Shown here piece after piece: positions 37,409 through 60,546 of a DNA stretch of 64,000 nucleotides. The notes beneath the pieces were generated by a model. It did not search any database. It was not told the origin of the DNA and worked only from the letters and a program-made list of their open reading frames with translations. The position numbers and the translations under genes are program-made. Position 1 is the stretch's first letter. The number at the start of each line of letters is the position of its first letter. This DNA is from Thermoplasmata archaeon (lineage in GTDB: Archaea > Thermoplasmatota > Thermoplasmata > Lutacidiplasmatales > UBA184), in the NCBI GenBank assembly GCA_022750435.1, contig JAKIVS010000010.1, positions 1 through 64,000 on the forward strand, written 5' to 3'.

Positions 37409-37417
37409 GGACCTCTC

Positions 37418-39112: not shown

Positions 39113-39127
39113 CGGTTCTCTCCCCTC

Positions 39128-41124: not shown

Positions 41125-41137
41125 CTCGTCCCCTCCC

Positions 41138-41950: not shown

Positions 41951-42135
41951 CAGAGCGTCCTCCCGCGGGTGTCGATCTCCATGTCGTCCGCCGATCCCGC
42001 CGCGGGGATGGCCGCCTCGCCAGGGAGCTCCGCGCGGTCGCTCCCGTAGAACGCCGCCCAGGTGATCCCGAGGCCGGCGAAGATGAGGAGGATCTCGACG
42101 AGGGTGATCTGGTCGTCGATGGAGAGCGCGCTCAT
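41950..42135 (-). CDS. Small single-TM protein between Rieske and Tat genes
   Basis: MSALSIDDQITLVEILLIFAGLGITWAAFYGSDRAELPGEAAIP...; overlaps both neighbours. Confidence 0.6.
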   Translation of the reverse strand: MSALSIDDQITLVEILLIFAGLGITWAAFYGSDRAELPGEAAIPAAGSADDMEIDTRGRTL

Positions 42136-42509: not shown

Positions 42510-42515
42510 GCTAGC

Positions 42516-43346
42516 TCACCCCGCCACCGCGCTCGGACCGATCCGACGGGCGGTGGACCGGCGTTCCCAACGGCTCGCGAACCACGCCCCGCCGAAGTAG
42601 AGGGCGATCATCGGCGCCGCGATCAGCAGCATGGTGATGCCCGAGTTGTCCGGAGTGACCAGCATCCCGAAGACGAGCGAGCCGATCACGGCCCCGCGCC
42701 AGTGCTTGCGCCAGGTGGCGGCGCGAACCACGCCGAGTCGGGTGAGGCTGTAGACAAACACCGGCAGCTCGAACACGAGGCCGAAGGCGAGGGAGTAGAG
42801 CAAGGCGAACTGGACAAACTGCTGCACCCCGAGGACGGGGGCGAGGCCCATCGCCGCGACGTACAGGAACAGGAGGCGGAACGTGAGCGGGGTGATGAAG
42901 AACACACCGAGCGCGGTTCCCACGGCGAACAGCGCCGTCGCCGGGAGCCCGATGTGGCGGATCATCTCCCGCTCGTTGCGGCGAAGCGCCGGGACGAGGA
43001 ACGCGCCGACCTCGTGGATGATCCACGGCATCCCGAGGATCACGGTCAGCAGGACCCCGATCTCGATCTGGACCATGATCGAGTCGCCGACGCCCACGTT
43101 GAGCAGGACCACGTTCGAGGGGAGCTCCAGTTGGACGAGCGCCCGGAACGCCTGCGCGGTGACGTTGTAGAAGAGGTTCGGCCAAGGGTACGCGAACGGG
43201 ATCGTCCGCCCCAGCAGACGCAGCGGGAACGGCTTCAGCTCGAAGGTGATCAAAAACCCGAAGATCGGCGCCAGCACCATGGCGATGCGGACGAGGCGCC
43301 GACGGACCTCTCCCAGGATGGAGAGGACCTTCCCAATCTCCTGCAT
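42516..43346 (-). CDS. tatC: Sec-independent translocase TatC
   Basis: GEVRRRLVRIAMVLAPIFGFLITFEL...ARRNEREMIRHIG...FGLVFELPVFVYSLTRLGVV...TPDNSGITMLLIAAPMIALYFG. Confidence 0.92.
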   Translation of the reverse strand: MQEIGKVLSILGEVRRRLVRIAMVLAPIFGFLITFELKPFPLRLLGRTIPFAYPWPNLFYNVTAQAFRALVQLELPSNVVLLNVGVGDSIMVQIEIGVLLTVILGMPWIIHEVGAFLVPALRRNEREMIRHIGLPATALFAVGTALGVFFITPLTFRLLFLYVAAMGLAPVLGVQQFVQFALLYSLAFGLVFELPVFVYSLTRLGVVRAATWRKHWRGAVIGSLVFGMLVTPDNSGITMLLIAAPMIALYFGGAWFASRWERRSTARRIGPSAVAG

Positions 43347-43452
43347 GGCTCACGTCCACCAACCTCGCCCGAACGGTCGTTGACGGCTCCGGGACGGAGC
43401 CGGCGGGGCTTCGACCGGTCCGACGTTGCCCATCTCGCCTCGAGACCGCACT

Positions 43453-43653
43453 CTAGCGGGGGTCCGTCGACGGTACGGCCGTGGCCTTCGCCTGCTCGGC
43501 CTTCAGCTCCCGCTCGACCTCGAGCCGGCCGCGCTTGAACTCTCCAATCGAGCGACCCAGGCTGTGAGCGAGGGCGGGGATCTTGCTGGACCCGTAGAAC
43601 AGGACCAGTACCACGATGCCGATGATCAGCCAGTCGTCCAACGAATCGAACAT
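43453..43653 (-). CDS. tatA: Twin-arginine translocase TatA
   Basis: MFDSLDDWLIIGIVVLVLFYGSSKIPALAHSLGRSIGEFKRGRLEVERELK. Confidence 0.92.
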   Translation of the reverse strand: MFDSLDDWLIIGIVVLVLFYGSSKIPALAHSLGRSIGEFKRGRLEVERELKAEQAKATAVPSTDPR

Positions 43654-43689
43654 AGATTCTCGTCGACCACCGTCGGCGGGGGTATGTGG

Positions 43690-43731
43690 CGTTCGTACCG
43701 GGAAGTGCGACCCGTACGAACGGTCCGGACC
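43690..43731. promoter_or_regulatory. Inverted repeat plus 12-bp palindrome upstream of tatA
   Basis: cgttcgtac-N15-gtacgaacg (9-bp arms) directly followed by cggtccggaccg; TATA-like TTTAAGTA just upstream on the minus strand. Confidence 0.5.
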
Positions 43732-43747
43732 GTCGGTACTTAAACCC

Positions 43748-44788
43748 CTACGCGGGGGATGCGACGATCGACTCGTTTCCGACCGAGACGGCGCGGTCGA
43801 CCGCGACCTCCGCCAACGTCGAGAGGCAGGCGGCGCTCCGCTGCGCGGCGACCGTGGCGGCGTGCAGGCCCGTGCGGCGGGCGGTGACCCCCATCTTGTC
43901 CGCGGACTCTCCGGCGGCGACTCCGAGGGCGTTGAGCAGGGAGTACGCCTCGCAGGCGTCGGCGAGGGACGGCCGGATCAGCGTGTCGACCACCGCTTTC
44001 AATCCCACCTTCAGTTCGCCCAGGTGGAGCCGAAGGGCGGCGGTGTCGGCGGCCGGGCGCTCCCGGCCAGAGTCGAGCAGCTCCGCAATCTCCGAGAGGA
44101 GTCCGCCCAATTCCTGGAGCGCATGGACCACGACCCGCCACTCGAGGAGCTGCCGGGGGTCCGGGCTCCCAATCCGTCGGGCAAGCGACCAGTCTCGGCT
44201 GGCGAGGAACAGCTGCCGGACCAGCAGGGAGAGAACGCGCTGCGTCTCCTCATCGAGGGATGGAAGCCGCTTCGAGTGGCCCTTGCGGTCGAGGAGCGTC
44301 TCCGACTCCTCGAGGAAGGCGATCAGAATCATCTTCATCCGCTGGACCAGCTGCGGCAGCCCGTACTTCGACGGGTCGATGAAATTCTGGAGGACGATCC
44401 GGTTCGGCTCCTGTGCGACGACCGAGACGCCGATCAGCTTGCGCGCCGCGCTCAGCAGCTCCTCGACCCGCTCCGGCGGGAGGGGCGACTCGCTTCGGAT
44501 CTCGATGGCGTCGTGGCCAACGCGGTAGGCGCCGACGATCAGCCGCTCGAGGACGCCGGGCGTGTCGAACGACTGCGCCTGGACCAGGTAGGGGGTTCCG
44601 ACGACGGCGGTGCCCGCGACGGGGGCGGGCCGGAGGTAGAGCGTTCCGTCGTCGTTCTGGTCAAAGACGATGAGGTCCCCCGGACGCAGGTTCATCGCCT
44701 CCGCCCACGGTTTCGGCAGCGTGACCGCGATGGAGGAATGTCCGGCTTTCAGGACGCGGCGCTCACGACTCGGGACTCCCCATGCCAT
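43748..44788 (-). CDS. AbrB-domain/PhoU-domain regulator
   Basis: N-terminal RERRVLKAGHSSIAVTLPKPWAEAMNLRPGDLIVFDQNDDGTLYL (AbrB/SpoVT), then two PhoU-like helical segments. Confidence 0.85.
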   Translation of the reverse strand: MAWGVPSRERRVLKAGHSSIAVTLPKPWAEAMNLRPGDLIVFDQNDDGTLYLRPAPVAGTAVVGTPYLVQAQSFDTPGVLERLIVGAYRVGHDAIEIRSESPLPPERVEELLSAARKLIGVSVVAQEPNRIVLQNFIDPSKYGLPQLVQRMKMILIAFLEESETLLDRKGHSKRLPSLDEETQRVLSLLVRQLFLASRDWSLARRIGSPDPRQLLEWRVVVHALQELGGLLSEIAELLDSGRERPAADTAALRLHLGELKVGLKAVVDTLIRPSLADACEAYSLLNALGVAAGESADKMGVTARRTGLHAATVAAQRSAACLSTLAEVAVDRAVSVGNESIVASPA

Positions 44789-44806
44789 TGGAACGCCTTC
44801 GAACCT

Positions 44807-44823
44807 CCTACGAGGTCCGTAGG
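44807..44823. promoter_or_regulatory. Palindrome upstream of AbrB-PhoU regulator gene
   Basis: CCTACG-aggtc-CGTAGG, overlapping ggttggaacc, about 20 nt upstream of the start codon. Confidence 0.4.
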
Positions 44824-44880
44824 TTGGAACCTGACCGCCTTCTTAGACGTTGCGGCTCCGGTTCCTCGCCGGTGGGGAAC

Positions 44881-45567
44881 CTACGGCGCCTTCGGAGGTT
44901 GGGTCGGCGCGGGGGTCGGCTCGGGGTATCCGAGACGCTCCGGGGGCATCTCCTCGGCGGCCCCGCGACGCTTTCCCACGACGAATCCCAGGACGAGCGC
45001 GAGGATGACGAGCCCGACGATCGTCCCGGAGATGATGTAGACCGGGGCGCCCGGACCGTTCGCGGTCGAGAGGCTTCCCGGCGCCTCACCCGAGCCGAGG
45101 AGTCCCGACATCGAGGGGAAGTGGCCCGGCTCGGTGCAGACGTACTCGTAGACCCCGACGGCCGGGGCCGTGAAGTTCGCGTAGAACTTCGCGCCCGTCG
45201 TCGCGCCGACCTGGATGTTGACGATCGGCGCGTGGGAGGAGAAGTACGCGGTGAGGTCGCTCGCCGTGTCCGTGGTCGGGAAGGTGTAGCCCGCGGTCGG
45301 CGAGAGGGTGAAGGTGTGCGGGATCGTCCCGAGCTGAGTGACCGTGACGTGCACGGAGTCGCCGGGCTGGACCTCGCCGATGTTCGTCGTGAAGGCGAGC
45401 TGGTCGGAGACGCTCACGTTCAGGAAATCGACGCCGCTCGCCGCCGTGCGAACGCCGGAAGCCGGGAGGGCCGAGTGGGTCGGCGCGACGCTCGGCACGA
45501 GGGCGATCCCGAGGACGGCGGCAACGATCAGTAGCGCGGCGGCGGCACGTGCGTACGGCCTAGGCAT
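44881..45567 (-). CDS. Membrane-anchored blue-copper protein (halocyanin/plastocyanin-like)
   Basis: Signal peptide; IPHTFTL; EYVCTEPGHFPSM (C-x4-H-x3-M type 1 Cu ligands); C-terminal TM. Confidence 0.88.
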   Translation of the reverse strand: MPRPYARAAAALLIVAAVLGIALVPSVAPTHSALPASGVRTAASGVDFLNVSVSDQLAFTTNIGEVQPGDSVHVTVTQLGTIPHTFTLSPTAGYTFPTTDTASDLTAYFSSHAPIVNIQVGATTGAKFYANFTAPAVGVYEYVCTEPGHFPSMSGLLGSGEAPGSLSTANGPGAPVYIISGTIVGLVILALVLGFVVGKRRGAAEEMPPERLGYPEPTPAPTQPPKAP

Positions 45568-45711
45568 CGTGGAAACCCGGCGCGCGGAACGCGCGCTCGG
45601 GCGGCGGGACGGAGAGGCCGCTTCAAAGGGGTTTGGTACGAACCTCGGTGGAACCAGGGCCTGGGGATCCGCCCCCCGAAGCCCGGACGATCGGGGTTCC
45701 GGTACGTACGC

Positions 45712-45975
45712 GTGAAATATCAAGCGACGGACCTCCTTGCCGTCGTGCGCCCGAGGGCCCTCGCTCGCGCGCTCCTCGGGTGGGGCGCCGTCGCTGCATT
45801 CGCCGGCTCGACGGGGTTCGCCGCGGCGAACCCCACGAACCTCCAGGAGACAACCCCGTTGCTCTGGGTGATGATGGCGATCTCGGTCGCCGGGGCGATC
45901 GTCACCTACGCCTTCCTCGCCTACGCGATCTGGCGCTACCGCGACCCGCATACGAAGGGGCGGCGCTATGGATAG
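45712..45975 (+). CDS. N-terminal segment of split cytochrome c oxidase subunit II
   Basis: 87 aa ending LLWVMMAISVAGAIVTYAFLAYAIWRYRDPHTKGRRYG, like CoxII TM1; overlaps the CuA ORF by 8 nt. Confidence 0.7.
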   Translation: MKYQATDLLAVVRPRALARALLGWGAVAAFAGSTGFAAANPTNLQETTPLLWVMMAISVAGAIVTYAFLAYAIWRYRDPHTKGRRYG

Positions 45976-46435
45976 CACGCGTCGGATGGAATACGCCTGG
46001 ACGCTCGCCGTCGTGGCGCTCCTCGCCGGCGTGCTGTTCTACTCGACGATCCTGCTCTACGACGACACCGACGCCACGCCCTCCCACGTCGACGAATACA
46101 TCGACGTGATCGGCCACCAATGGTTCTGGGAGTTCTGCTACACCAACGACACGTGTGCCAACGCCACCTACAATCCCAGCAACAACACCGCAACGGGCGG
46201 GGCGATGTGGGTGCGTCCGGGCACCGAGGTCCAGATCAACGTCACCAGCGACGACGTGATCCATTCCTTCAACGTCCCGAGCCTCGGCGTCCGGCTCGAT
46301 GCGATCCCCGGCCGCGTCAACACGATCGCGTTCGCGGTCCCGGCGGCCCCGGTCGGGACGAGCTATCTGATCCAGTGCACCGAATTCTGCGGGACCTACC
46401 ACGGCATCATGCGGGCCTTCGTGGTCGTCACGTAG
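45968..46435 (+). CDS. coxB: Cytochrome c oxidase subunit II, TM2 plus CuA domain
   Basis: MEYAWTLAVVALL; GHQWFWEF; VIHSFNVPSLG; CTEFCGTYHGIM (CuA C-x3-C-x3-H-x2-M). Confidence 0.93.
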   Translation: MDSTRRMEYAWTLAVVALLAGVLFYSTILLYDDTDATPSHVDEYIDVIGHQWFWEFCYTNDTCANATYNPSNNTATGGAMWVRPGTEVQINVTSDDVIHSFNVPSLGVRLDAIPGRVNTIAFAVPAAPVGTSYLIQCTEFCGTYHGIMRAFVVVT

Positions 46436-49400
46436 GTTCTTCTTCGTACACCGGCAGCATCTCGGCGGGCTCCGGATCCTCAGGGGGGGCTCTCCCCCGA
46501 CCCGACCGCACCGCGATCACCGCCGCCACTCCCACGGCCACGGCTCCGCCGACGACGACGGCGAGCTCGACGAGGGGGATTCCCCTGGTTCCGCTCCCGC
46601 CCGGCACCGGCTGGAGCGAGACGGTCGTGTAGTTGCCCGCCACTCCCGTCGACACCGTCACGTTCGCCGCCTCGAACCCGGGGGCGGTCACGGAGACGTT
46701 GTAGGTTCCCGGGCCCGTCCCGAACGTGAACTCCCCATTGGCGTCCGTCGACCGGGTGCCCTCCCCACGGCCCGTCGTCGTCCACAGCGTCACCGACGCC
46801 GCGGTCAGCGGGCGTCCGGTGGCCGCGTCCACCACCACACCCCGGAGGGGGACCTCGGTCCGTGGGAGGGCGATGTTGTGCAGAACCGAGGCGCCGCTCA
46901 CCTGGATGGGGACCCGGACGGTCCCATACTGGATTGTCCCGTTGGTCGGATCGCTCGCCGTCAGCGTCGTCGTTCCGTTGGGGAGCTGCAGGCTGTAGGC
47001 GCCGTTTGCATCCGAGCGCGCCACCACCGTCCCGTTGTTCGCGATCGTCACCCCGGCCAGAATGCTTCCGGTGTCCCCGTCGGAGGTCACGCCCTCCACG
47101 AGGTAGCTCATCGCCAGGAGCGCGAAGTTGACGCCCGTGACGTTCCCGTGGACGAGGAGCGTCGTGTTCTCGGACCGATAGTTCGGCTCCCCGACGATCA
47201 CTTCCACGGTCCCCCAGCGCACCTCGAACCGGTAGTCCCCTCCGCCGCCGCTCACGGCCTGGGCGACGCGGCCGCCGCCCTCCTCCGCGACCACGAGGGC
47301 GTTGACGAGGCCGGTGCCGGTCGCCGCGGCCGTGACGACACCGCTCACGTTCTCGAAGACGTCCGGCGGAATCGGGGTCAGGACGAGGAGGCCCGCATGC
47401 ACGGTGCCTCCCGAGATCACGACGACCGTCTCGGACGCATCCGGATAGCCGGCGGCGGAGGCCGTGAGGGTGTTCGGACCCGGGGAGGCGGAGAGCACGT
47501 ACGAGCCGTTCGCGAGCGTCCGTCCGGCTCCGCTGCACGGCCCGGCGTACGTCGGGCACGGGAGCACGGTGGCGTTCCCGATGGGCGCCCCGGTGGAGTT
47601 GACCACCTCCCCCCAGACGTTCCCGTACGACTGGAGGAACAAGGTGCCGACGTCGAGATCCGCGCCCGGCGCGATCGCGATCGGGAACCGCGTGGCGTTG
47701 TATCCCGGAGCGTCGGCGTACAGGTAGTACGTCCCAGGGGGCGACTGCACCGAGAAGGTTCCGTTCGCGTCGGTGGTGACCGTCTCGTCCGGAAGGCACC
47801 CGCCCGGACCGCTGTACTTCGAGCAGATGCTCACGTTCGCCCCGACGAGGAGATCGCCGTGGGGAAGGCTCCGCACCACCCCGTGCACGGTGCCGAAGGT
47901 GAACACCGGCACGTTCCCGAGCTCGACGAACGAGTCGGGAGTGACGTTGACCAGCTTCGAGATGTTCGTGAGGTAGAGCGGGGAATCGACCGTCACCTGG
48001 TCGACGCCGGCGGCGGCGCCGATCCAGAACACCCCGGAGACGTTGGACTCCACATGGTTGAGGCACACCATCGTGCCGACCGGGCACAGCGAGACCGTCG
48101 CGTACGGGACCGAGACATTCCCCGGCTCGGCGACCACCGTCCCTTCGACCACGCCGTTCGCGGTCATGTTCAGCTGCGGGTCGACGACGTCGGTTCCGTA
48201 GGTCAGGTTCTCGTGGAGGGTGAAGGTGGAGTAGCCGAGCGCGGTGAACGTGATGTTCGCGGCCGACGACGGGAGCGCGGAGAGGTAGTACTGGCCGAGG
48301 TCGCTCCCGAAGATCGTTTGCGTGTGGATCCCGAGGGCGTTCTCCGCGACCTGCAGCCCGAGCACCGGGAGGTCGGTGGTGTTGTCGAACACGCCGGGGA
48401 CGACGGGGACCCCCACGGTGTTCACCTGCCGGCTCCGTACGTCGGCGTAGCCGTCTCCGGCCAGCGCCGCGACCGTGATGGGTCCGTACGCATCGGTCGT
48501 CCGATTCACCACGGTTGTGGTCCCGGTGAAGTTCGCGTAGGCGGGCGAGCCGGTGGTCAGGGTATCGTTGCCCGGGGGGGCCGACGTGTTGACGAAGCCG
48601 GTCCCGTTGGAGGGCGCAGAGCCGCTCAGGGGCCGGGACAACGGGCCCCCGAAGCCGCTCGCCTCGAGCTCGATGCCGGAGAGGGGGAGCAACGTCCCGA
48701 CTTCCCGGATCGTCGCCGTCACGAAGCCGAATTCCGACATGGCCACCGTCGGACCCGCGACCACCACACCGCCGTGCAGGGGACCCACGGAGGCGTTCGA
48801 GCGGGCGGGAACGAGACCCCCCGCCCCCGCGGAGACTCGGATCGACGACGCGCCGTTGGGGAGGAATCCGACGTAATACCCGCCGGGGCCGGTGACGAAC
48901 GAGGCGAGTCCGAGGACGGGTCCGCTCGACTCCACTCCGAATGTGGCGAAGAACGCGGGAGGTGAGGTGGCTCCCACGACCTCGGTGAGATCGCCGGCTT
49001 CGCCACCGAGGATCTCGAGGCCGGCCGCTCCGCCGGCCTCGGTGCCGTTGTAGCGGGTGTCGGGGATCGTGGCGGAGAAGACGAGGCGGCTCGTGTTGTA
49101 TCCCGGGAGGGAATTCCCGTAGCCGCTCGGCCCTCCGCCCGTCAGGAGGAGCGTGTCCGGCGCGCCATAGGGTGCGCTCACGTTGAAGAACCCGCCACTG
49201 TCGGTGGCCCCGGGCGGACTGCAGGCCCCCGACCCGTCGCAGGCGATGACCACGAGTTGGTCGGCCCCTTCCCCGTACTCGGCCCCCAACGAATCCCACG
49301 GGTCGATGAGGACGCGTCCCGCGACCCAGACGAGGGGGGTCAGGAGCACCGTGCCGACGTTGACGGTGCCGGCCACCGAGGCGTTGAGGAACACCCGCCC

Positions 49401-52151
49401 GGTCTCGTAGTGCGTCGCGTTGATCCAGATCTCATAGGCGCCGTGGACGGTGCTCAGGTTGAACTCCCCCCCCGGGAGGGTGAACGACGACGTGAACGAG
49501 CAGCTCCCGGTGGCGATCACGAGACAGACGCTCAACTGGGCGTTGCCGACCCCCAGCCCGGAGAGCGCGTCGACCGTCCGGCCGACGACCCAGGAGCCGG
49601 TCGTCGGGGCGGAGGAGTTCGCTCCGCGAGGGGCGAAGGGCGACGGCGCCCCGGAGGCGACCCCGACCGGGGGCAGCCGCATCGTCGGCGCGACCGCGGG
49701 GCTACCGGGGGTCAGGTTCAGGAAGGTGCTCTCGGGGTCGAATCCCGAGGCGGTGGCGGTGATCTCGACCGCGTTCGCGGGGAATCGGGTGACCGGTGCG
49801 GTCCCTTCGTACGTCCCGTTCGTTCCGCTCGTTTCCGTGCCCGGATAGCACGGTTGCAGCGGCGCGACGTTGCAGACCGTGACCACGGCCTGGAGGATCG
49901 GCAGGCCGGTCGTGGCGGAGACGAGGCGACCGGAGTACGAGGCGACCGGGCCGAGCTCGATCTCCCCCGTCGAGTTGTTCGCGGTGACGTCGATCCACGT
50001 GTAGTTGGTCCGGAATCCGATCTCGGAGGTCGTGACGACGTCCCACCCGAGCGGGGCCGGTGCGGAGAACGAGCCATTGGTCGAGGTGGCGGCGGTGAAA
50101 CACGTCGATTGGCTCGTCACCGGGCAGACTTGAATCGAGCCGGCCCAACCGCCGGGGGGCGCGTAGGTCGAGGGCGCCCCTTCGAGTCCGATCGACCCGT
50201 AGATCGCCCCGACGCTGAGGTCGAGCGGGAAGGTCCCGAGGTCGGTCGGGTGGTCTTCCTGCGCACAGCATCGGAACGGGACGGTCAGCCAGGTCCCGGT
50301 GTGCAGCGTCCCCCAGGTGATGTCGACCTCGTCCGGCCCGGGCGGGGCCGGGGCGCAGAAGGTGTACGGCCCGGTGGGGCACCCGGCCGGAATCGCCTGG
50401 TCCTGACCGCCCGAGCTTGTGGTTACGCCCGGGAGGCACTCCCCGGTCCGGACGCTCGAGCAGACCCCGATGGAGACCGGGACGTTCGTGTCGTTGGCGA
50501 GCGAGCCGGAGAGCACCACCGTCCCCGAGACGTAGGTTCCCGGGTCCGCGTCGAAGGCTCCCACCATCGTCACGTGGTCGGGGGTCACGTTGACCCAACT
50601 GATGTTGATGTACTGGAACGGCCACGGCGGCCACGGCTGGCCGCCGGGGAACGACAGCTCGGCGAGGGGGAAGCCATCCGGTTCGACGTAGGCGCGGTAG
50701 AGGAACAGGATGTTGCGCAGCGGCGCGACCGGGAACAGCTCCGTCTGTCCGAGCACCACGCCCGTACCGGTGCAGCTGGGGGGCAGGGTTTCGGCCCCGT
50801 TCGCGGGGAGACCGGTGTTGCTCCCGGAGAGGGAGCAGGCGATCACCGCGAGGCCCCCTCCGAGGGGGGGCAGCGAGCTCGGCCAGGAACCGTTCGGCGA
50901 GCCTCCCGTAAAATTGACGGTCACCTCGACCGTTCCGAACGGGACGAGCTCGACCGTGCCGAAGTCCACGACGCCCGAGGGCCCGGACGGAACGTCGGCC
51001 GTTTGGGTCACGTTGCTCACGTACCCGGCAGCGTCCACCCCGAGGAACCCGGGGCCGGCGATGGCGGAGAAGTTGACCACCCCGCCCGTCCCACCGCCCG
51101 AGGAGACGTTCGCAAAGAACGGTCCCAGGCACGTCAGGTCAATGCGGTCGGAACAGAACTTCAGGGTGGCGTTCACCGGCGCGCCCGTCACGCTGTCGAC
51201 CACGGTCACGGTCGAGTTGATCCCTCCCTCGAGCTCCACCGTGCCGACGTTGACGACGGCCCAGGGGGCGGGGGAGGCGTAGGTGGCGTTGCCCACGAAC
51301 TGGGGACCCGACCCGGGCGGTCCGACCTGCACCTCGATCGCGATCGGGTCGACCTCGAAGGAGAAGGTGCCGTTGGACAGCGACAGCGTCTGGTCCGGCC
51401 CCCCGAGCGCCCCGTCCCGGGATTCGCTGCTGAGGTTGGCGCCCGCCACCGGAGGGAGCCCCGGCAGGTCGGCGACGACCTTCCCGACGACGGTGGCGAG
51501 GTGGACCATCCGAATGTTGCCGACGGGGGTCACCACGCCGGAGGTGACGTTCGCGAAGCTCCGGTTCCCGAGGTAGTCCAGGACGGAGAACGTCAGGACG
51601 ACCGGTCCCGGATCTCCCTCGACCCGGAAGTATCCCGTCCCGTTCGTCGGGGTCGCATTCACCGTACAGTTCCCGCACACGCCGCTCGGGGTGGAGATGG
51701 ACACGAGAGCGCCGGCGATCGGCGTACCGTACACACTGTCGATGACGTTCCCCGAGACCCAGCCTCCGGCGACGCCCGGACGGCGTGTCGCCGGTGCCGG
51801 AGCCGCGGGTGGAGGATGCGCGCCCGCGGGGCTGGACGATCCGGCGAGCTGCGCGAGTACGGACGGGAGCGAGCCGCTCCACGAATGGTCCTGTCGATAG
51901 ATCGACGGCCCGTTGACAAATCGCCCTCCCCCGGACGCGCCCGCCAGGCCGACGACGGGCGAGTGCGTCGCCCCGCTCCGGGGGGAGACCGCAGCATGGG
52001 GACCGAGCGCCGGTGGGAGCGTCGCCGGCGTCGCGGAGACCATCGGTACCGCCGAGAGCACCAGCAGGGCGAGGATCAGGAGAACGGGGTGGCGCGCGGC
52101 CCTCGCCCCACGGAGCGGATGCCGGCGGACCGACCCGGACGCAGCAGCCAT
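46428..52151 (-). CDS. Giant surface protein A: CarboxypepD_reg-like repeats, C-terminal TM anchor
   Basis: Signal peptide RHPVLLILALLVLSAVPMVSA, repeated V.G.V...G.PI.GA.V...C...C...T..NGTF..(A)PPG...L.A..GY units, C-terminal VELAVVVGGAVAVGVAAVIAV + RSGRGR tail. True start about 52151, not 55385 as in the ORF track. Confidence 0.88.
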   Translation of the reverse strand: MAAASGSVRRHPLRGARAARHPVLLILALLVLSAVPMVSATPATLPPALGPHAAVSPRSGATHSPVVGLAGASGGGRFVNGPSIYRQDHSWSGSLPSVLAQLAGSSSPAGAHPPPAAPAPATRRPGVAGGWVSGNVIDSVYGTPIAGALVSISTPSGVCGNCTVNATPTNGTGYFRVEGDPGPVVLTFSVLDYLGNRSFANVTSGVVTPVGNIRMVHLATVVGKVVADLPGLPPVAGANLSSESRDGALGGPDQTLSLSNGTFSFEVDPIAIEVQVGPPGSGPQFVGNATYASPAPWAVVNVGTVELEGGINSTVTVVDSVTGAPVNATLKFCSDRIDLTCLGPFFANVSSGGGTGGVVNFSAIAGPGFLGVDAAGYVSNVTQTADVPSGPSGVVDFGTVELVPFGTVEVTVNFTGGSPNGSWPSSLPPLGGGLAVIACSLSGSNTGLPANGAETLPPSCTGTGVVLGQTELFPVAPLRNILFLYRAYVEPDGFPLAELSFPGGQPWPPWPFQYINISWVNVTPDHVTMVGAFDADPGTYVSGTVVLSGSLANDTNVPVSIGVCSSVRTGECLPGVTTSSGGQDQAIPAGCPTGPYTFCAPAPPGPDEVDITWGTLHTGTWLTVPFRCCAQEDHPTDLGTFPLDLSVGAIYGSIGLEGAPSTYAPPGGWAGSIQVCPVTSQSTCFTAATSTNGSFSAPAPLGWDVVTTSEIGFRTNYTWIDVTANNSTGEIELGPVASYSGRLVSATTGLPILQAVVTVCNVAPLQPCYPGTETSGTNGTYEGTAPVTRFPANAVEITATASGFDPESTFLNLTPGSPAVAPTMRLPPVGVASGAPSPFAPRGANSSAPTTGSWVVGRTVDALSGLGVGNAQLSVCLVIATGSCSFTSSFTLPGGEFNLSTVHGAYEIWINATHYETGRVFLNASVAGTVNVGTVLLTPLVWVAGRVLIDPWDSLGAEYGEGADQLVVIACDGSGACSPPGATDSGGFFNVSAPYGAPDTLLLTGGGPSGYGNSLPGYNTSRLVFSATIPDTRYNGTEAGGAAGLEILGGEAGDLTEVVGATSPPAFFATFGVESSGPVLGLASFVTGPGGYYVGFLPNGASSIRVSAGAGGLVPARSNASVGPLHGGVVVAGPTVAMSEFGFVTATIREVGTLLPLSGIELEASGFGGPLSRPLSGSAPSNGTGFVNTSAPPGNDTLTTGSPAYANFTGTTTVVNRTTDAYGPITVAALAGDGYADVRSRQVNTVGVPVVPGVFDNTTDLPVLGLQVAENALGIHTQTIFGSDLGQYYLSALPSSAANITFTALGYSTFTLHENLTYGTDVVDPQLNMTANGVVEGTVVAEPGNVSVPYATVSLCPVGTMVCLNHVESNVSGVFWIGAAAGVDQVTVDSPLYLTNISKLVNVTPDSFVELGNVPVFTFGTVHGVVRSLPHGDLLVGANVSICSKYSGPGGCLPDETVTTDANGTFSVQSPPGTYYLYADAPGYNATRFPIAIAPGADLDVGTLFLQSYGNVWGEVVNSTGAPIGNATVLPCPTYAGPCSGAGRTLANGSYVLSASPGPNTLTASAAGYPDASETVVVISGGTVHAGLLVLTPIPPDVFENVSGVVTAAATGTGLVNALVVAEEGGGRVAQAVSGGGGDYRFEVRWGTVEVIVGEPNYRSENTTLLVHGNVTGVNFALLAMSYLVEGVTSDGDTGSILAGVTIANNGTVVARSDANGAYSLQLPNGTTTLTASDPTNGTIQYGTVRVPIQVSGASVLHNIALPRTEVPLRGVVVDAATGRPLTAASVTLWTTTGRGEGTRSTDANGEFTFGTGPGTYNVSVTAPGFEAANVTVSTGVAGNYTTVSLQPVPGGSGTRGIPLVELAVVVGGAVAVGVAAVIAVRSGRGRAPPEDPEPAEMLPVYEEEPT

Positions 52152-52204
52152 CGTGGGGCCGAGCCGCGCGACACCCGGCGGCCGTAAGGCGCCTTCGACC
52201 GTCG

Positions 52205-55200
52205 TCAGGGCTCTTCGGCGGGCTCCGGCGTCTCGTACACGGGCAGCAGTTGCTCCGCCTCCGGGTCCTCCGGAGGCGCTCGACCGCGACCCGACCGCAC
52301 GGCGATCACGGCCGCCACTCCCACCGCGACCACGCCGCCCACGATCACGGCGAGCTCCTCGAGGGGGATCCCCCCGGCTCCTTTCCCGCTCGGTACGGGC
52401 ACGAGCGACACCGTCGTGTAATTCCCCGCCACTCCCGTCGACACTGTCACGTTCGCGGACTCGAACCCGGGCGCCGACACCGAGACGTTGTACGTTCCCG
52501 GGCCCGTCCCGAATGTGAACTCCCCGTTGGCGTCCGTCGAGCGAGTCCCTTCTCCCCGGCCCGTCGTCGTCCACAGCGTCACCGACGCCGCGGTCAGCGG
52601 GCGTCCCGTGGCGGCATCCACGACCACGCCGCGGAGCGGGACCTCGGTGCGCGGGAGGGCGATGTTGTGCTGGACGGAGGCCCCCGCGACTTGGATGGGG
52701 ACTCGGAGCGTTCCGTACTGGATCGTCCCGTTGGTTGGGTAGCTCGCCGTTAGCGTCGTCGTTCCGTTGGGGAGTTGCAGGCGGAAGGCTCCGTTCGCAT
52801 CGGAGCGGGCCACCACCGTGCCGTTGTTGGCCAGCGCGACGCCGGCCAGAATGCTCCCGGAGTCTCCGTCCGACGTAACGCCCGTCACGAGGTAGGTCAT
52901 CGTCGCCAAGGCGAAGTTCACCCCGGTCACGTTGGAGTGGACCATCAGCGTCGTGTTCTCGGACCGGTAGTTCGGCTCCCCGACGATCACTTCCACGGTC
53001 CCCCAGCGCACCTCGAACCGGTAGGCACCTCCGCCGCCGCTCACCGCCTGAGCGACGCGGCCGCCGCCCTCCTCGGCGACGACGAGCGCGTTGGGGAGGC
53101 CGGTTCCCGTGGCGGCCGCCGTCACGACCCCGCTGACGTTCTCGAACACGTCGGGCGGGATCGGGGTGAGCACGATCGGGCCCACGTCGACCGTCCCTCC
53201 GGAGACGACGTCCACCACGACCGACGTGTCCAGGTAGCCCGCGGCCGACACGGTCAGGTCGCTCGGTCCCGGGGAAGTGGAAAGCGCGAACGAACCGTTC
53301 GGCGGCGTCAGGGCCGCCGCGGTGCACGGGCCCGCGTAGGTCGGGCAGGGGAGTACGGTCGCGTTGCTGAGGGGGACCGACGAGGTGTTCACGACCTCGC
53401 CGAGCAGGATGCCGAACGATTCCAGGAACAGGGTGCCCACGTACAAGTTCGCCCCCGGCCCGACGACCAGGAGGAACCGAGATGCGTTGTACCCCGGCGC
53501 CTCCGCGTAGAGGTAGTACGTCCCGGGAGGGGTTTGGATCGAGAAGGTACCGTTCGCGTCGGTGACCACCGTTTCGTCGGCGAGGCACCCCCCCGGCGCG
53601 CTGAACTTCGAGCAGAGGCTGACGTTCACCCCCACCATCAGTTGGCCGTGCGGCAGCGCCCGCACGAGCCCGTGGACCGTCCCGAAGGTGAACACCGGGA
53701 CGTTCCCGAGCTCGGTGAACGAATCCGGCGTGACGTTCACCAGCTTCGAGATGTTCGAGAGGTAGAGGTCCGACTGCACCGACACCTGGTCGAGGCCCGC
53801 GGGAGCGGCGATCCAGAACACGCCGGTGGCGTTCGTTTCCACGGCGTTCGTGCAGGAGAGGTCGGTCACGGCGCAGACCACCACGTTCGCGTACGGGACC
53901 GACACGTTCCCGGGCTCGGCCGTGACGGTGCCCGCGAGGAGTCCGTTCGCGGTGAGATTGAGCTGAGGCTCGACGACGTCGCGGCCCGCGGTAAAGTTGA
54001 AATTTTGGTTGACCGGGGTGAACCCGAGGGCGGAGAAGGTGACCGTCGCGTCGGGCGAGGGCACCGCCTCCACGAAGTACTGCCCGAGGTCGTTGCCGAA
54101 GGCGGGGAGCGAGTTGACGCCGCCGGGGGCGTTCTCGACAACCTCCATCGCGTCGACCGGTCGTCCGGTGAGGTTGTCGAACCCGCCCGGGACCGGGGGA
54201 ACTCCGTCGGTGTTCACCTCCCGACTTCGGAGCGTCGCGAAGCCGCCGTTCGGGAGCGCCGTGAGGTTGATGGTGCCGATCGCGTCGGTGACGCCGCTCA
54301 CCACGTCGGTCAATCCGGTGTACGTCGCGTAGGCGACCGCGCCCGTCGAGAGGGCGTCGGCGCCGGGCGGGGCGGTGACGTTGACGAAGCCGAGACCGTT
54401 CGAGTCGGCAGAGCCGCTCAAGGTCACGTTGCCCGGCCCCCCGCCGAGGACATTCAGGGCGATCCCGAGAAGGGGGGCGTGAGTCACGGCGTCCTGCAAC
54501 GTCGCCGTGACGAAGCCGAACCGGGCGACCGTCAGGTTCGGGCCCGGCACGACGAGGCCCGGTTGGATGATTCCGGAGTAGGGGGTCGAGGTTCCCGGGA
54601 CAAGTCCGGACGCCGTGCCCGTCGCTCGGACCCCGGTCCAGCCGTCGGGGAGGAACCCGGCGTAGAACCCCGCGCCACCGATCCAGTAGCCCGTCGCGCC
54701 CCCGACGATCCCCGGAGCATTCAGGGCGTAGACGGCGAACGCCGCGGGTGGGATCGCGCTGCCGACCGACTCGTGGATGTTCCCCGTGAGGCCCCCGAGG
54801 ATCTTCAACGCGACCGAGTTTCCGGGTCCCGAGCCGTTGAGGGTGGTGAGCGGCGTGGAGACGTCCACGGCGAGGGCCGTTCCGTTGTAGCCGTTCATCG
54901 TGTTCCCGTACTGTCCGGCGGGACCGCCTCCCACGATGCGAAGGGTGTCCGGGCTCCCCGCGGGGGCGCTCAGGTTGAACGAGCCGTCGGAGGAGGTGCT
55001 GGCCAGCGGGCCGCAGAGCAGGGAGGGAGTGCAGGCCGTCAGGGCGACGCCGTTCGCCCCTTCTCCGTCCAGCCCGAACAGGGATTCCCACGGGTCGATG
55101 AGCACGCGGCCGGTAATGCGGTCGAGCGGAGCGATCGCAATCGCACCGAGGTCGACCGTTCCAGCGCTGGAGGCGTTCAGGTAGACGGAGTGGGCCACGT

Positions 55201-57913
55201 AGTGCGACCCGTTGATCCAGATCTCGTACGCCCCGTGCACGGTGGAGAGGTTGAACTCCCCCCCCGTCAGGGTCTGGAACGAGCTCAGGGCGCATCCCGC
55301 GGAGGCGACGACCTGGCACACGGTGACCTCGGCGTTCCCGACGCCGAGCCCGGAGACCGAGTCGACCGCGCGACCGATGACCCACGAGCCCGTCGTGGGC
55401 GACGAAGAGTTCGCGGCTCTCGGCGAGAGAGGTCCGAGCTGCGCGCCGCCGACCGTGCCGACCGGCGGCATCCGGATCGTCGGGATCTGGACGAACCCGC
55501 CCGGCGTGACGTTCACGAAGGTGGCCTCGGGGTCAAAGCCCGAGGCGGTGGCCAGGAACTCGAACGTCCCGGCGGGGAAGGGGAGGGCCGGTACGGTCCC
55601 GTTGTAGGTCCCGTTGGAGCCGGAGGTAGATGGACCCTGGTAACACGGATGCGGGTACGCCACGTTGCAAAGGCTGAGCGTCGCCTCGAGGACCGGGTCG
55701 CCGGTCACCGACGAGACCACCTGGCCGCCGAACGACGCCACCGCGGCGACTTCGATGAGGCCGGTACTGTTGTTCCCCGTCACGTCGACCCAGCTCGTGT
55801 TCGCCCGGTATCCCTCGCCGGCCACCGTGACGACGTCCCAGCCGAGCGGCGCGACCGAGGAGAACGCATCGCTCGTGGAGTTGGTGATCGCGTAGTCGCA
55901 GGACCCCTCGTCCCCGGCCGGACAGACGCTGACTCCCAGGTCCCACCCGTACGGAGGGGCGTAGGAGGCAGGCGCCCCCTCGAGGCCGAAGGTGCCCGTC
56001 ACCTCGCCGCCGCCGCTCGTGAACCGGAACACGCCGTCGAGGGGACCGAGGTTGGTCGGTCGATCCTCCTGGGAGCAACAGCCGAACGGGACGGAGATCC
56101 AGGTCGAGTTCCGGGTCCCGCCCCAGGTGACGGTCACTCGGTCCGGCCCCGGCGGGGCCGGGACGCAGAACGTCCAGGCGGCGGTCGGGCAGCCGTCGAC
56201 CGGCGTGCCGCCCGGACCGTTCGCGCTCGTCGAGACGGTCGCAAGGCATTCCGAGGCCCGGACGGTGGAGCAGACCTGGACCGTGATGCTCGCCGAGGCG
56301 TCGTTGCTTGGAACCCCGACGGTCCCGTACAAGTAAGTCCCCGCGCTGACGTTCATCGTCCCGACGAACGTGGACCGATCCGGGGTCACGTTCACCCACG
56401 TGTCGTTCGTCAGATTCGCGGACGGGAAGCCCATCACTCCCCCGCTGAACAGGACGGTCGCGACGGGGAATCCGTTCGGCACGTCGTACTGACGTTGGAC
56501 GACGATGAGGTCCCGGAGCGGTGGCGCGGGAACGAGTTCGGTGGTGCCGAGGGTGACGGCCGTGCCAACGCAGGAGGGAGGGACGACGCGGCCGTTGACG
56601 GACGCGCCCACGTTCATGCCGGAGAGCGAGCAGGCCCAGACGAAGAACCCCGGCCCGTCGACGGGGAGCGCGCTCGGCCAGGTGTCGTTCGGGGTTCCCC
56701 CGGAGAAGTTGAGACTGATCTCCACCGAGCCGAGCGGCAGCAGGCGGACGAGGCCGAGGCTCGGCACGCCGGTTGGGTCCGCCGGGACGTTGGCGACCTG
56801 GGTGACGTTGGTCACGTAGCCGCCCGCCGTCACGAGCACGACGCCGGGACCCGCGACGGTCGGGATCGTGAACGTCCCGTTCCCGGCCCCCGAGGGGAGG
56901 CACCCGAGGTCGATCCGGTCCGAGCAGAAATTCGCCTCGGCGGCCACGGGGAGCCCCGTGACGGAGTCGACCACGGTGAGCGAGGCGTTCTGGCCTCCCT
57001 CGAGATAGATCGTCCCGAGATCGACGACCTGCCAGGGGGTCGGGTCGGCGTACGAGGCATTCGGGAGGAACGCCTGGGTCGTCGTGAAGTCGACCTCGAT
57101 CGGGTACGGGTCGACGAGCAACGCGAACGATCCGTTCGGAAGCGTGTAGGTGAAATTCGGCCCTGCGATCTGGCCGTCGCGGGAATCGCTGCTGACGGAG
57201 ACGTTCCCGAGCGGCGGGCTCCCGGCGAGGTCGGCGAGGACGCGCCCCGTCACGGTCGCCAGGTGGACGAGCAGGACGACGCCGAGGCGCGTGGTCACAC
57301 CAGGGAGGATCGTCGGGAAGGTCTTGTTCACCAGGTAGTACGGGTCGTCGCGGAACGTCACCGAGGTGGAGCCGGCCGCGCCCTCGACCACGAACTGGCC
57401 CGTCGCGTTGGTGAATACCGCGGACGTACAGTTCGGACAGCTGGCCCCGCTGGTGTAGACCGACACGTTGGCGATGGGCGTGGCGTGGACGCTGTCCTCG
57501 ACCGTGCCGGACAGCCATCCGAAGCCGCTCGCGGGTCTTGCGGAGAGCGACGGGTGCGGTAGCCCCATCGGTGGCGTGAGGCGGACAGGAGGCGCCCCGG
57601 GAGGGGTCGTATGGTTCGAGACTCCGGTGGGTGAAAGGAACGAACGGTCGGTGCGGAAGAGCGCGGGAGCGTTGACGACCCGCCCGCCGCCCGCCGACCC
57701 GGGGAGACCCTCAGGAGAATGGGCCATCGGTGCGGCCTCCGCCACCGGGGCGCCCCGGTCGTGCGGCGGAGCCACGGGGACGGGGACGGACCCGGCAAGA
57801 TTTCCGGGCAGCGTGAGGACCAGAACGATGAGAACGGCGACAGCGACGAGCCCGCCGGAGGCGACCCGACGCCGCGGCGACCCGGCGCTCGGGCGACAGC
57901 AGGAGGCGTCCAT
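52205..57913 (-). CDS. Giant surface protein B, tandem paralogue of protein A
   Basis: Same architecture: SGGLVAVAVLIVLVLTLPGNLAGS signal, repeat units, C-terminal EELAVIVGGVVAVGVAAVIAVRSGRGRAPPEDPEAEQLLPVYE; near-identical C-terminal third. Confidence 0.9.
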   Translation of the reverse strand: MDASCCRPSAGSPRRRVASGGLVAVAVLIVLVLTLPGNLAGSVPVPVAPPHDRGAPVAEAAPMAHSPEGLPGSAGGGRVVNAPALFRTDRSFLSPTGVSNHTTPPGAPPVRLTPPMGLPHPSLSARPASGFGWLSGTVEDSVHATPIANVSVYTSGASCPNCTSAVFTNATGQFVVEGAAGSTSVTFRDDPYYLVNKTFPTILPGVTTRLGVVLLVHLATVTGRVLADLAGSPPLGNVSVSSDSRDGQIAGPNFTYTLPNGSFALLVDPYPIEVDFTTTQAFLPNASYADPTPWQVVDLGTIYLEGGQNASLTVVDSVTGLPVAAEANFCSDRIDLGCLPSGAGNGTFTIPTVAGPGVVLVTAGGYVTNVTQVANVPADPTGVPSLGLVRLLPLGSVEISLNFSGGTPNDTWPSALPVDGPGFFVWACSLSGMNVGASVNGRVVPPSCVGTAVTLGTTELVPAPPLRDLIVVQRQYDVPNGFPVATVLFSGGVMGFPSANLTNDTWVNVTPDRSTFVGTMNVSAGTYLYGTVGVPSNDASASITVQVCSTVRASECLATVSTSANGPGGTPVDGCPTAAWTFCVPAPPGPDRVTVTWGGTRNSTWISVPFGCCSQEDRPTNLGPLDGVFRFTSGGGEVTGTFGLEGAPASYAPPYGWDLGVSVCPAGDEGSCDYAITNSTSDAFSSVAPLGWDVVTVAGEGYRANTSWVDVTGNNSTGLIEVAAVASFGGQVVSSVTGDPVLEATLSLCNVAYPHPCYQGPSTSGSNGTYNGTVPALPFPAGTFEFLATASGFDPEATFVNVTPGGFVQIPTIRMPPVGTVGGAQLGPLSPRAANSSSPTTGSWVIGRAVDSVSGLGVGNAEVTVCQVVASAGCALSSFQTLTGGEFNLSTVHGAYEIWINGSHYVAHSVYLNASSAGTVDLGAIAIAPLDRITGRVLIDPWESLFGLDGEGANGVALTACTPSLLCGPLASTSSDGSFNLSAPAGSPDTLRIVGGGPAGQYGNTMNGYNGTALAVDVSTPLTTLNGSGPGNSVALKILGGLTGNIHESVGSAIPPAAFAVYALNAPGIVGGATGYWIGGAGFYAGFLPDGWTGVRATGTASGLVPGTSTPYSGIIQPGLVVPGPNLTVARFGFVTATLQDAVTHAPLLGIALNVLGGGPGNVTLSGSADSNGLGFVNVTAPPGADALSTGAVAYATYTGLTDVVSGVTDAIGTINLTALPNGGFATLRSREVNTDGVPPVPGGFDNLTGRPVDAMEVVENAPGGVNSLPAFGNDLGQYFVEAVPSPDATVTFSALGFTPVNQNFNFTAGRDVVEPQLNLTANGLLAGTVTAEPGNVSVPYANVVVCAVTDLSCTNAVETNATGVFWIAAPAGLDQVSVQSDLYLSNISKLVNVTPDSFTELGNVPVFTFGTVHGLVRALPHGQLMVGVNVSLCSKFSAPGGCLADETVVTDANGTFSIQTPPGTYYLYAEAPGYNASRFLLVVGPGANLYVGTLFLESFGILLGEVVNTSSVPLSNATVLPCPTYAGPCTAAALTPPNGSFALSTSPGPSDLTVSAAGYLDTSVVVDVVSGGTVDVGPIVLTPIPPDVFENVSGVVTAAATGTGLPNALVVAEEGGGRVAQAVSGGGGAYRFEVRWGTVEVIVGEPNYRSENTTLMVHSNVTGVNFALATMTYLVTGVTSDGDSGSILAGVALANNGTVVARSDANGAFRLQLPNGTTTLTASYPTNGTIQYGTLRVPIQVAGASVQHNIALPRTEVPLRGVVVDAATGRPLTAASVTLWTTTGRGEGTRSTDANGEFTFGTGPGTYNVSVSAPGFESANVTVSTGVAGNYTTVSLVPVPSGKGAGGIPLEELAVIVGGVVAVGVAAVIAVRSGRGRAPPEDPEAEQLLPVYETPEPAEEP

Positions 57914-57979
57914 CGGTGCGTGGGGGCGAACCCGCACGTCACCCAGCCGTAAGGAGACTTCGACAGGCGCGCGCCCCGC

Positions 57980-59041
57980 TCAGTGGTGGGGCTTCGGTGC
58001 GGGTGGGGGAATCCGACCGACCAGCGAGGCGACGAGGGCGAGGAGAATGCCGACCCCGAGCAGGGCGCCGGCCCCGGCGAGCAGCAGCGGTTCGACGATC
58101 GCGGTGCTCGGCGGCGCCACGGACGCGGGCACCGGCACGCCGACATACAGGTAGCCAAACATCCCGGCGGCGAAGTGACCCGGGATCTCGCACAGGTACT
58201 GGTAGACTCCGGCTTGCGGGATGGTGAAGTTCGCCCAGACGACCTGGCCAGGGGTCGTCGGGACGTCGACGCTCGCTGGGGACGGGTGCGCCTGGAAGAA
58301 CGTCGTGAAGTTGCCCGGGGTCAGATTCACGTTCGGCAGGCCGACCAGCGACCAGGTGTGGCCGGTCGAGCCGAGGTTCGACACCGCGATGTCGATCGTG
58401 ACCGGGAAGGTCGTGGCGTTCGCGCCCAGCGCCGCCGGGACGAACGCGAGTCCGGCGCCCGAGGTCTGTTCGGTGAGCTGGACGCCGGCCCCGGACGCCC
58501 CGCCGGTGACGTTCAAGAAGCCGAACATCCCGGCCTGGAACTGGTAGGCGACGAGGCTGACGAACTCGAAGCTGCTCCCGCTGGCGTTGGCCGGGATCGT
58601 GAAGTTGGCCCACGCGGAGGTTCCCGGCGCGACCGAGATGTTGGTCCAGGAACCGTTGGCATGGAAGAACGCCGCGAGGGACGTGGGAGACCAGCTCCGG
58701 TTCAGAGGGTGGTTGGCGACCGAGGAGACCGTGAAGGTGTGGGTGAAGTTCCCGGAGTTCGTCAGGTCGACGGCCATCAGGTCGCCGGCCGTCCCGGTCA
58801 GGGACGACGGGTCGAACGCGGGGGCGTCGGTGAGCGTGACGTTCGCCCGGATCGTCGCCGTGCCTCCGCCGGTGGGTCCGCCTCCGGAGGAGAAGGTCCG
58901 CGGCGCCGCCGAAGGCCGTTCGCTCGCGGTACCGACGAGCGCCGCCGCGAGCAGGACCACAAGGCCGAGCGCGGTCAGCGCTTTGGAGAGACGTCTCCAA
59001 CGCCCGGCGCGCCCGCTCCGGGGGTATGGAGGGACCGGCAT
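57980..59041 (-). CDS. Secreted two-cupredoxin-domain protein with C-terminal TM
   Basis: Signal helix; domain 1 GNFTHTFTV...QFQAGMFGFLNV; domain 2 GHTWSL...YLCEIPGHFAAGMFGYLYV; TM LLLAGAGALLGVGILLALVASLV. Confidence 0.87.
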   Translation of the reverse strand: MPVPPYPRSGRAGRWRRLSKALTALGLVVLLAAALVGTASERPSAAPRTFSSGGGPTGGGTATIRANVTLTDAPAFDPSSLTGTAGDLMAVDLTNSGNFTHTFTVSSVANHPLNRSWSPTSLAAFFHANGSWTNISVAPGTSAWANFTIPANASGSSFEFVSLVAYQFQAGMFGFLNVTGGASGAGVQLTEQTSGAGLAFVPAALGANATTFPVTIDIAVSNLGSTGHTWSLVGLPNVNLTPGNFTTFFQAHPSPASVDVPTTPGQVVWANFTIPQAGVYQYLCEIPGHFAAGMFGYLYVGVPVPASVAPPSTAIVEPLLLAGAGALLGVGILLALVASLVGRIPPPAPKPHH

Positions 59042-59109
59042 CGATCGAGCCGGTCGTCCGACCGAGGGTCGCTTGATATCCCTAGTGTACGAATCTGGCG
59101 GCTCGAGAT

Positions 59110-59955
59110 TCACGAGGAGGCGGGCGGAGAGCCGGGGGGTTCGTCGAGTCCGAACCGGCGGATCAGTTGCGTGGTCACTTCGAGGAGCGGATGGTGCGCG
59201 GCCCGGTCGATCTCGATATCGGCGAGTCCGTTCAGATGGTGCTCGCGGGCGACCCGCTCGAAGCCAGTCTCCTTCGCCGCGAACTCCTGCGGCTGGTCGC
59301 AGGTGAGGATGTACGCCTGGAGCTGGGCGAGCCCCATCTCCTGCGCGGCGAGGGCGCGGTGGTGGCCGTCGACGAGGATCCATTGGTCCCCCTTCTGGAC
59401 GACGAGGACCGGCTCGGCGAACCCCCGCTCGAGCTCGTAGCGCCGACCCTCGAGTTCGTCCTCGAACACCTTCCACTGAGTTGGTTTGAGGCGCGCGATC
59501 GGGACGAGTCCCCGTCGCGAGGAGAACGGGAGCTGGTAGCGCTCCGCGAGGAGGCTCTTCAACGTCTCCGCCTTCGCCGGGGACGCCCGCTCGAAATGGG
59601 AGCGGACGATGTCGAGATTGGAGATCACCCCGACGAGGCGTCCCGCCTCGTCCGTGATCGGCAGATCGCGGAGCCCGAACCGAAACATGATGCGGGCGAC
59701 GTCGTCGAGGGCCATGTCCGGCGTCGCCGTGTACGTCCCTTCCCGGATGATCTCCTTGAGCGGCGTGCCGCGGTGCTGGGAGTTGCGCAGGAGCTCCTTC
59801 GAGCTCACGAATCCCACGAGCTTACCGGAGCCGTCGGTCACGGGAAGGCCGTGGTGACGGCTGCGGGTGAGCCGGTCGATTGCCACGCCGACGCTGGTGG
59901 TCCCGTCGAGGTGCTCGACCTCGAGCACCATGTAGTCGCGGACGCGGACCGTCAT
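59110..59955 (-). CDS. Tandem CBS domains fused to ParB/SerK-like domain
   Basis: Two CBS repeats (SRHHGLPVTDGSGKLVGFVSSKELL; FGLRDLPITDEAGRLVGVISNLDIV) then ARLKPTQWKVFEDELE...WILVDGHHRALAAQEMGL. Confidence 0.85.
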   Translation of the reverse strand: MTVRVRDYMVLEVEHLDGTTSVGVAIDRLTRSRHHGLPVTDGSGKLVGFVSSKELLRNSQHRGTPLKEIIREGTYTATPDMALDDVARIMFRFGLRDLPITDEAGRLVGVISNLDIVRSHFERASPAKAETLKSLLAERYQLPFSSRRGLVPIARLKPTQWKVFEDELEGRRYELERGFAEPVLVVQKGDQWILVDGHHRALAAQEMGLAQLQAYILTCDQPQEFAAKETGFERVAREHHLNGLADIEIDRAAHHPLLEVTTQLIRRFGLDEPPGSPPASS

Positions 59956-60542
59956 CGCTCCGGCGGCGCCGGCGCTTCGTCGCGCAGGTACGCGGTGAGG
60001 ACGTGGCAGACGAGCAGGTGGACGTCCTCGACGTGTTGCATGGAATTCGACGGGACGACCACGGGAATCTCCACGGCGCCCTTCAGCTTCCCGCCGCCGA
60101 TCCCGGTGAGGCCGACGGTGCGGAGCCCCATCCGCTGCGCGACGTGCATCGCCTCGAGCACGTTCGGCGAGTTGCCGCTTCCCGAGATGCCGAACGCCAC
60201 GTCGCCGGCGCGCGCGAGCGTCGCGAGTTGCTCGCTGAACACCTTTGCGTACTCGGCGTCGTTCGCCCACGCGGTGAGCGTCTCGACGTTATCGACCAGG
60301 GCGGCGCACTTGAACCGACGGCTGTCGCCGCGGATCGTCGCCTTGCCGATGTCCGCGACGAAGTGCGAAGCCGTGGACGCGCTCCCGCCGTTGCCGAAGA
60401 AGTAGATGGTCCGGTCCGCTTCGCGGGCCGTCAAGAGGACCGGGACGATCTGTTCGATTGCCTTCGCGAGATACGGGTCGGACAACGCGGCGTGGGTCTC
60501 CTCCACGTAGCGGCGCACGTACGGGCCGATTTCCATCGTCAT
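59952..60542 (-). CDS. gmhA: Phosphoheptose isomerase-like SIS protein
   Basis: IYFFGNGGSASTASHFVADIGK...ALVDNVETLTAWANDAEYAKVFSEQL...GISGSGNSPNVLEAM. Confidence 0.87.
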   Translation of the reverse strand: MTMEIGPYVRRYVEETHAALSDPYLAKAIEQIVPVLLTAREADRTIYFFGNGGSASTASHFVADIGKATIRGDSRRFKCAALVDNVETLTAWANDAEYAKVFSEQLATLARAGDVAFGISGSGNSPNVLEAMHVAQRMGLRTVGLTGIGGGKLKGAVEIPVVVPSNSMQHVEDVHLLVCHVLTAYLRDEAPAPPER

Positions 60543-60546
60543 CGTG

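Follow-up and report, generated by a model that had tools for sequence, protein, structure and literature searches.

Two adjacent giant genes in a Thermoplasmata genome encode anchored surface proteins of about 1,900 residues. Gene conversion appears to have preserved the likeness of their membrane-proximal parts, whereas their outer parts have diverged. We propose, with a probability of about one half, that these proteins, A and B, use a signal peptide for secretion and form anchored rods of about 18 prealbumin-like domains, with cysteine pairs and N-glycans, and that they act as a paired, probably co-assembling scaffold or spacer of the cell envelope, having a shared base and diverged outer faces. 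The DNA analysed was a stretch of 64,000 nucleotides, hereafter the window.

Results

The gene pair

The anatomy of the pair can be read directly from the DNA. Gene A (52205..57913, minus strand; ATG at 57913, stop at 52205) encodes 1902 residues and was delimited by its ORF, ATG, Pfam and domain-model matches, hydropathy and sequons. Its tandem paralogue, gene B (46428..52151, minus strand; ATG at 52151, stop at 46428), encodes 1907 residues and was delimited by ORF, ATG, Pfam and the domain model. The two are co-oriented, are separated by a gap of 53 bp, and have products that are 60% identical in a whole-length search. Gene calling based on codon usage returned the identical two frames with later start codons, and an ORF of 2985 aa for B was rejected as a chance upstream extension of the frame in DNA of 70% GC. 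By hydropathy, both N-termini have a hydrophobic segment preceded by Arg residues, which we take as the signal segment, and both proteins have a single C-terminal transmembrane (TM) segment followed by a short tail, RSGRGRAPPEDPE...LPVYE (RSGRGR...LPVYE). The TM of A lies at 52289..52357 (minus strand; about residues 1853-1875) and is followed by a tail of ~27 residues. Signal segment and TM are also retained in relatives. The tandem pair of anchored proteins of ~1,900 aa described in an earlier note on this DNA is thus confirmed in its ORFs, coordinates, orientation, signal segment, TM and tail.

The motif CGAAG-N3-CCTTAC occurs twice in the whole window, once upstream of A (TCGAAGTCTCCTTACG, 57948..57963, minus strand) and once in the gap between A and B (TCGAAGGCGCCTTACG, 52183..52198, minus strand). 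Both are putative promoter elements, and the second suggests that B may have a promoter of its own.

Relatives and subfamilies

In a survey of the genus, 30 of 78 genomes gave matches to the giant family at E <= 1e-3, and in about 26 the match was strong; 12 of the 25 good-quality genomes had one. At this threshold no match was obtained in G044, which is rated 100% complete, nor in several other genomes rated at 93-97%. Giants are also carried by other genera within the same Thermoplasmata family, and the sampled members of other families of the order and class yielded no long match; full-length relatives were thus detected in just one Thermoplasmata family. The nearest named record, Thermoplasmata archaeon isolate AcS13-54, was the sole full-length relative in the genome-contig search. 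Viral contigs contained no relative of A or B, and plasmids gave weak partial matches (~26%) in Priestia only. Neither the giant family nor the operon described below was found in the literature that we searched.

A third paralogue, 31% identical, is encoded on another contig of the window genome (G000:C4:2540-8332). In an unrooted tree it belongs to subfamily II, which is separate from subfamily I, the form found beside COX2, to which A and B belong (G023:C57 is a long-branch outlier). The survey of paralogues and copy number proposed in the earlier note thus disclosed a third paralogue, two subfamilies and tandem copies.

Giants of subfamily II show full-length homology to A and B and have the same domain order and most of the cysteine pairs. 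Unlike subfamily I, which lies outside the operon at a cupredoxin-COX2 site, they are mostly found in an operon, usually as its first gene, followed by a partner ending in GRFE, two anchored proteins and an ATPase. The first partner, of ~700 aa, ends in GRFE (or GRWE) and has a hydrophobic segment at its N-terminus only; partners 2 and 3 are related to each other, are ~650 aa long, end in RVTL/RITL and have a C-terminal TM. The ATPase, of ~1200 aa, consists of a block of hydrophobic segments and then two AAA domains, which match p97 and the archaeal VCP-like ATPase. Profiles of the operon partners, searched against the PDB, yielded no convincing match. We found this operon at L039:8350-18346 (G000:C4), L168, L152, L156 and L040, and its order is conserved in another genus (L168, G103); the operon neighbours are absent around the giants G071:C9 and G023:C57. 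Across the 78 genomes, the giant family and the ITL protein occur together in 21, are discordant in 5 and 4, and are both missing from 48 (Fisher p 1e-10, uncorrected for kinship). Because the operon is more widely spread, it may represent the ancestral setting, the tree being unrooted.

The GRFE-ending protein is itself a multi-copy family, with four matches in the window genome (among its loci are G000:C28:167084-169156, G000:C28:331553-333559 and G000:C18:49208-51070), up to 12 per genome, some of them split, and many in G078, G060 and G112. The copies in the window genome mostly lack an adjoining giant, and the family has no match in Pfam or NCBIfam. Near another subfamily II giant (L042:4829-15000, G024:C44) lie tandem anchored proteins of ~1,470 aa; the one tested has InlB-type (Flg_new_2) and BNR repeats.

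Domains, cysteines and sequons

Pfam CarboxypepD_reg (PF13620) matched A in eight separate stretches (E 5e-59) and B in seven (E 4e-63), scoring 197 and 210 bits against a curated cut-off of 32.3. With a domain HMM for the family, seeded from the last domain of A, 16 domains of A and 17 of B were recovered at significant scores. The positions left over (domain 4 of both proteins, domain 10 of A) fit by spacing and score weakly or not at all, so that the count of about 18 CarboxypepD_reg/prealbumin-like domains in each protein is partly inferred. Of the two domain types proposed before, CarboxypepD_reg stands, whereas the libraries give no Cna-B match in A or B.

This architecture is evidently fixed. 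The 26 full-length homologues are 1886-1989 aa long and only ~30% identical, and their domain order is nearly frozen. Subfamily I has 26 cysteine columns (13 pairs), 25 of them occupied in 13/13 sequences and one in 11/13, and most of these pairs are common to subfamily II. Ten of the 13 pairs are spaced by 6-9 residues, which suggests hairpin disulfides. Sixty-one columns are invariant across the 26 homologues (33 G, 10 C, 8 N, 4 P, 2 W and one each of L, T, D and F); with 59 of them G, C, N, P, W, F or L, and the rest one T and one D, they do not form a catalytic residue set. No enzyme family scored above its cut-off in A or B in Pfam or NCBIfam, in agreement with the original statement that no enzymatic domain is apparent.

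A and B contain 59 and 60 N-x-S/T sequons, compared with 15.6 +/- 3.5 and 14.6 +/- 3.4 in composition shuffles, that is, ~4 times the expectation and more than 12 standard deviations above it. As controls, NP[S/T] occurs 0 times in either protein, and the reversed motif [S/T]-x-N, with 17 occurrences in A and 9 in B, is at or below the shuffled level. The sequon richness claimed earlier therefore survives the shuffle test. Within subfamily I, 16 sequon positions are kept in 13/13 sequences and 23 in at least 9/13. The window genome encodes an STT3 oligosaccharyltransferase (28.4 bits, cut-off 24.5), and A and B are probably N-glycosylated. A pair of genes at 59952-61524 in the window, encoding a GmhA-like phosphoheptose isomerase and an HddA-like heptose kinase, stands beside the cupredoxin gene genus-wide; their scores lie under the NCBIfam equivalog cut-offs, and the pair is a possible source of heptose for surface glycans.

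The near-frozen length and domain order, the 13 cysteine pairs and the 16 sequons point to rods of set length. As far as the sequences can tell, the family is a structural protein of set length, neither an enzyme nor a repeat-variable adhesin.

The genomic site and the duplications

B converges with the gene for COX2 (cytochrome oxidase subunit II; 45968..46435, plus strand; PF00116, E 2e-20) and overlaps it by 8 bp (46428-46435); the same 8-bp overlap is present in G024, G053, G068, G070 and AcS13-54. Upstream of A lies the gene for an anchored cupredoxin (57980..59044, minus strand; PF00127, E 5e-5). As read from its sequence, the cupredoxin has two domains, of which the first seems to have lost its Cys and His copper ligands and the second retains CEIPGHFAAGM. 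A respiratory cluster at 36836-46435 comprises CtaA-like, COX1, cytochrome b, Rieske, TatC, cupredoxin and COX2 genes, together with short putative TatA-like ORFs.

The synteny of both neighbours is conserved. In every genome read (the window genome, G053, G054, G070, G077, G071, G078, G068, G007, G024 and G075, the last being AcS13-54, in which the site is split over two contigs), subfamily I is flanked by the anchored cupredoxin gene on one side and, on the other, by COX2, with which it converges. Relatives outside this 11-genome clade have the same neighbours without a giant (L107-L112, L114-L116). On a tree of CBS and COX2, presence at the site requires one change, and the giant is found in 11/11 clade members; by this evidence, subfamily I appears to have been gained once at the cupredoxin-COX2 site.

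Tandem pairs occur in the window genome, AcS13-54 and G053, and most clade members have a single copy. In the tree, A pairs with A′ and B with B′ of AcS13-54, placing one duplication before the split of these genomes and after G070 branched off, and the G053 copies are each other's nearest relatives. Tandem duplication thus appears from the tree to have occurred twice. The start of the AcS13-54 B copy is found at the 3′ end of contig L026, where a similar element, CGAAGGGTCCTTACG, precedes it.

Concerted evolution of the base

We compared A and B with the AcS13-54 copies A′ and B′. At sites 888-1500, 51 positions support orthology and 18 support concerted change, versus 0 and 40, respectively, at sites 1501-1902. 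Four-fold degenerate sites behave likewise: over 888-1500, differences within a genome equal those between orthologues (p 0.76), whereas over 1501-1902 they are fewer (p 0.003). The concerted segment covers residues 1501-1902 of A (52208..53413, minus strand; domains 15-18, TM and tail) and about residues 1510-1907 of B (46431..47624, minus strand; start placed by alignment). Its break point lies near the boundary of domains 14 and 15, and the outer two thirds of A and B diverge faster than the base. Only A and B share exact DNA runs of at least 40 nt with each other; these are 57 and 50 nt long and lie within this segment.

This pattern would be explained most simply by gene conversion, in the lineages of the window genome and of AcS13-54 alike, across the four membrane-proximal domains, TM and tail. 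Plain constraint as the cause of the C-terminal likeness was rejected, because orthologues resemble each other less in this part and the pattern recurs at synonymous sites. An assembly chimera was rejected for AcS13-54, in which the copies are only about 75-84% identical in the segment. The G053 pair shows no homogenised base; since most of the clade is also single-copy, pairing is not essential to the family.

Discussion

What might a pair of such rods do? That their bases are alike through gene conversion and their outer ends have drifted suggests that A and B contribute to the cell surface as a working pair, although tandem homology alone, without co-assembly, can suffice for gene conversion. 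In the model that we favour, both proteins would be secreted via their signal peptides, anchored in the cytoplasmic membrane by the one C-terminal TM, and would project outwards as rods whose prealbumin-like domains are stapled by the conserved cysteine pairs and bear N-glycans. The base (domains 15-18, TM and tail) would serve as a common docking or assembly interface, either on membrane machinery or on each other, and the diverged domains 1-14 would form different outward faces. A and B form a branch of the family that is specific to their lineage; its sister branch heads a conserved envelope operon that includes the membrane-embedded, p97-like AAA ATPase.

A family profile search of the PDB gave NOMO2 as the closest solved structure by sequence (E 7e-21). 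The match falls in two stretches, the best of which aligns profile positions 1637-1864 with NOMO2 267-496; at about 230 residues, it indicates only that the domain type is common to both. NOMO resembles A and B in its type I topology, its tandem prealbumin-like domains and its single C-terminal TM, and it is a glycoprotein, as A and B probably are; in contrast, it has about 12 domains, resides in the ER and is a subunit of the BOS complex, where its partners are Nicalin and TMEM147 (PMC11186639). Flexible and rod-shaped, with a length of about 27-30 nm, NOMO1 influences the spacing of ER membranes (PMC8327139), and one report has NOMO bearing force (PMC12262048). Scaling from ~12 to 18 domains, the rods of A and B might reach about 40 nm or more. 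The transthyretin-like domain of carboxypeptidases D, N and M likewise belongs to the CarboxypepD_reg family (E 3e-8 to 2e-3), but there it is a single domain on an enzyme, whereas A and B have tandem copies without one. AlphaFold runs on both halves of A, using three-sequence alignments, gave pLDDT values of 28 and 31 and no model of useful confidence.

The earlier note had seen in the pair a large investment typical of an S-layer, stalk or adhesion system; the third paralogue with its AAA-ATPase operon, the conserved position beside the oxidase gene and the concerted C-terminal evolution were beyond its view. A large, anchored, probably glycosylated and non-enzymatic pair of surface proteins is well supported; an S-layer as a general statement is not supported, given 30/78 genomes and the absence from G044. 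We think it unlikely that A and B make up the true S-layer of their clade as abundant lattice-forming glycoproteins covering the cell. Their size, sequons and C-terminal anchor would suit that role, and the universality of the COX2-linked form in the 11-genome clade makes a clade-specific surface coat possible. However, most genomes of the genus, one of them 100% complete, lack the giants, Pfam and NCBIfam returned no S-layer family or PGF-CTERM signature, and subfamily II is present in the same genomes, so that neither form is the only one there; S-layer status is unlikely across the genus. The faster divergence of the outer two thirds and the patchy presence across the genus would also be expected of adhesins or receptors whose outer domains bind partner cells, minerals or substrates, but the fixed length and domain number differ from those of repeat-variable adhesins, and no recognisable ligand-binding domain was found in Pfam or NCBIfam, and we consider this role rather improbable.

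The constant position between an anchored cupredoxin gene and COX2 might instead suggest that A and B keep cupredoxins close to the oxidase and so order the respiratory chain on its extracellular face. Against this, cupredoxin and COX2 adjoin without a giant in most relatives, the giant gene is convergent with COX2, subfamily II is located elsewhere, and no metal- or haem-binding family was matched in Pfam or NCBIfam. The absence of the giant from the site in most relatives led us to reject this as the main reading, and we regard it as very improbable. A bolder and tentative idea extends the scaffold to the whole family, which might be the leading part of an archaeal envelope machine that is driven by ATP and as yet undescribed, comprising a fixed-length rod of ~18 domains, a secreted GRFE partner, two R(V/I)TL-tailed, C-terminally anchored paralogues and a polytopic p97-like double AAA ATPase. 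The pair in the window would then be a relocated and duplicated version, its shared base evolving in concert because it still docks on the common machinery; we hold this to be doubtful, if possible.

The proteins of the Picrophilus S-layer are still unidentified (PMC10354927), and the coverings of Thermoplasmata cells are largely unknown. Less expected among the results were how fixed the architecture is, the pattern of conversion, and the operon with the AAA ATPase in the sister branch. To the picture of these cell surfaces the giants add a well-delimited family of anchored, probable rods of set length, a tandem pair with one part kept alike and the other diverging, and a conserved operon that joins such putative rods to a membrane p97-like ATPase.
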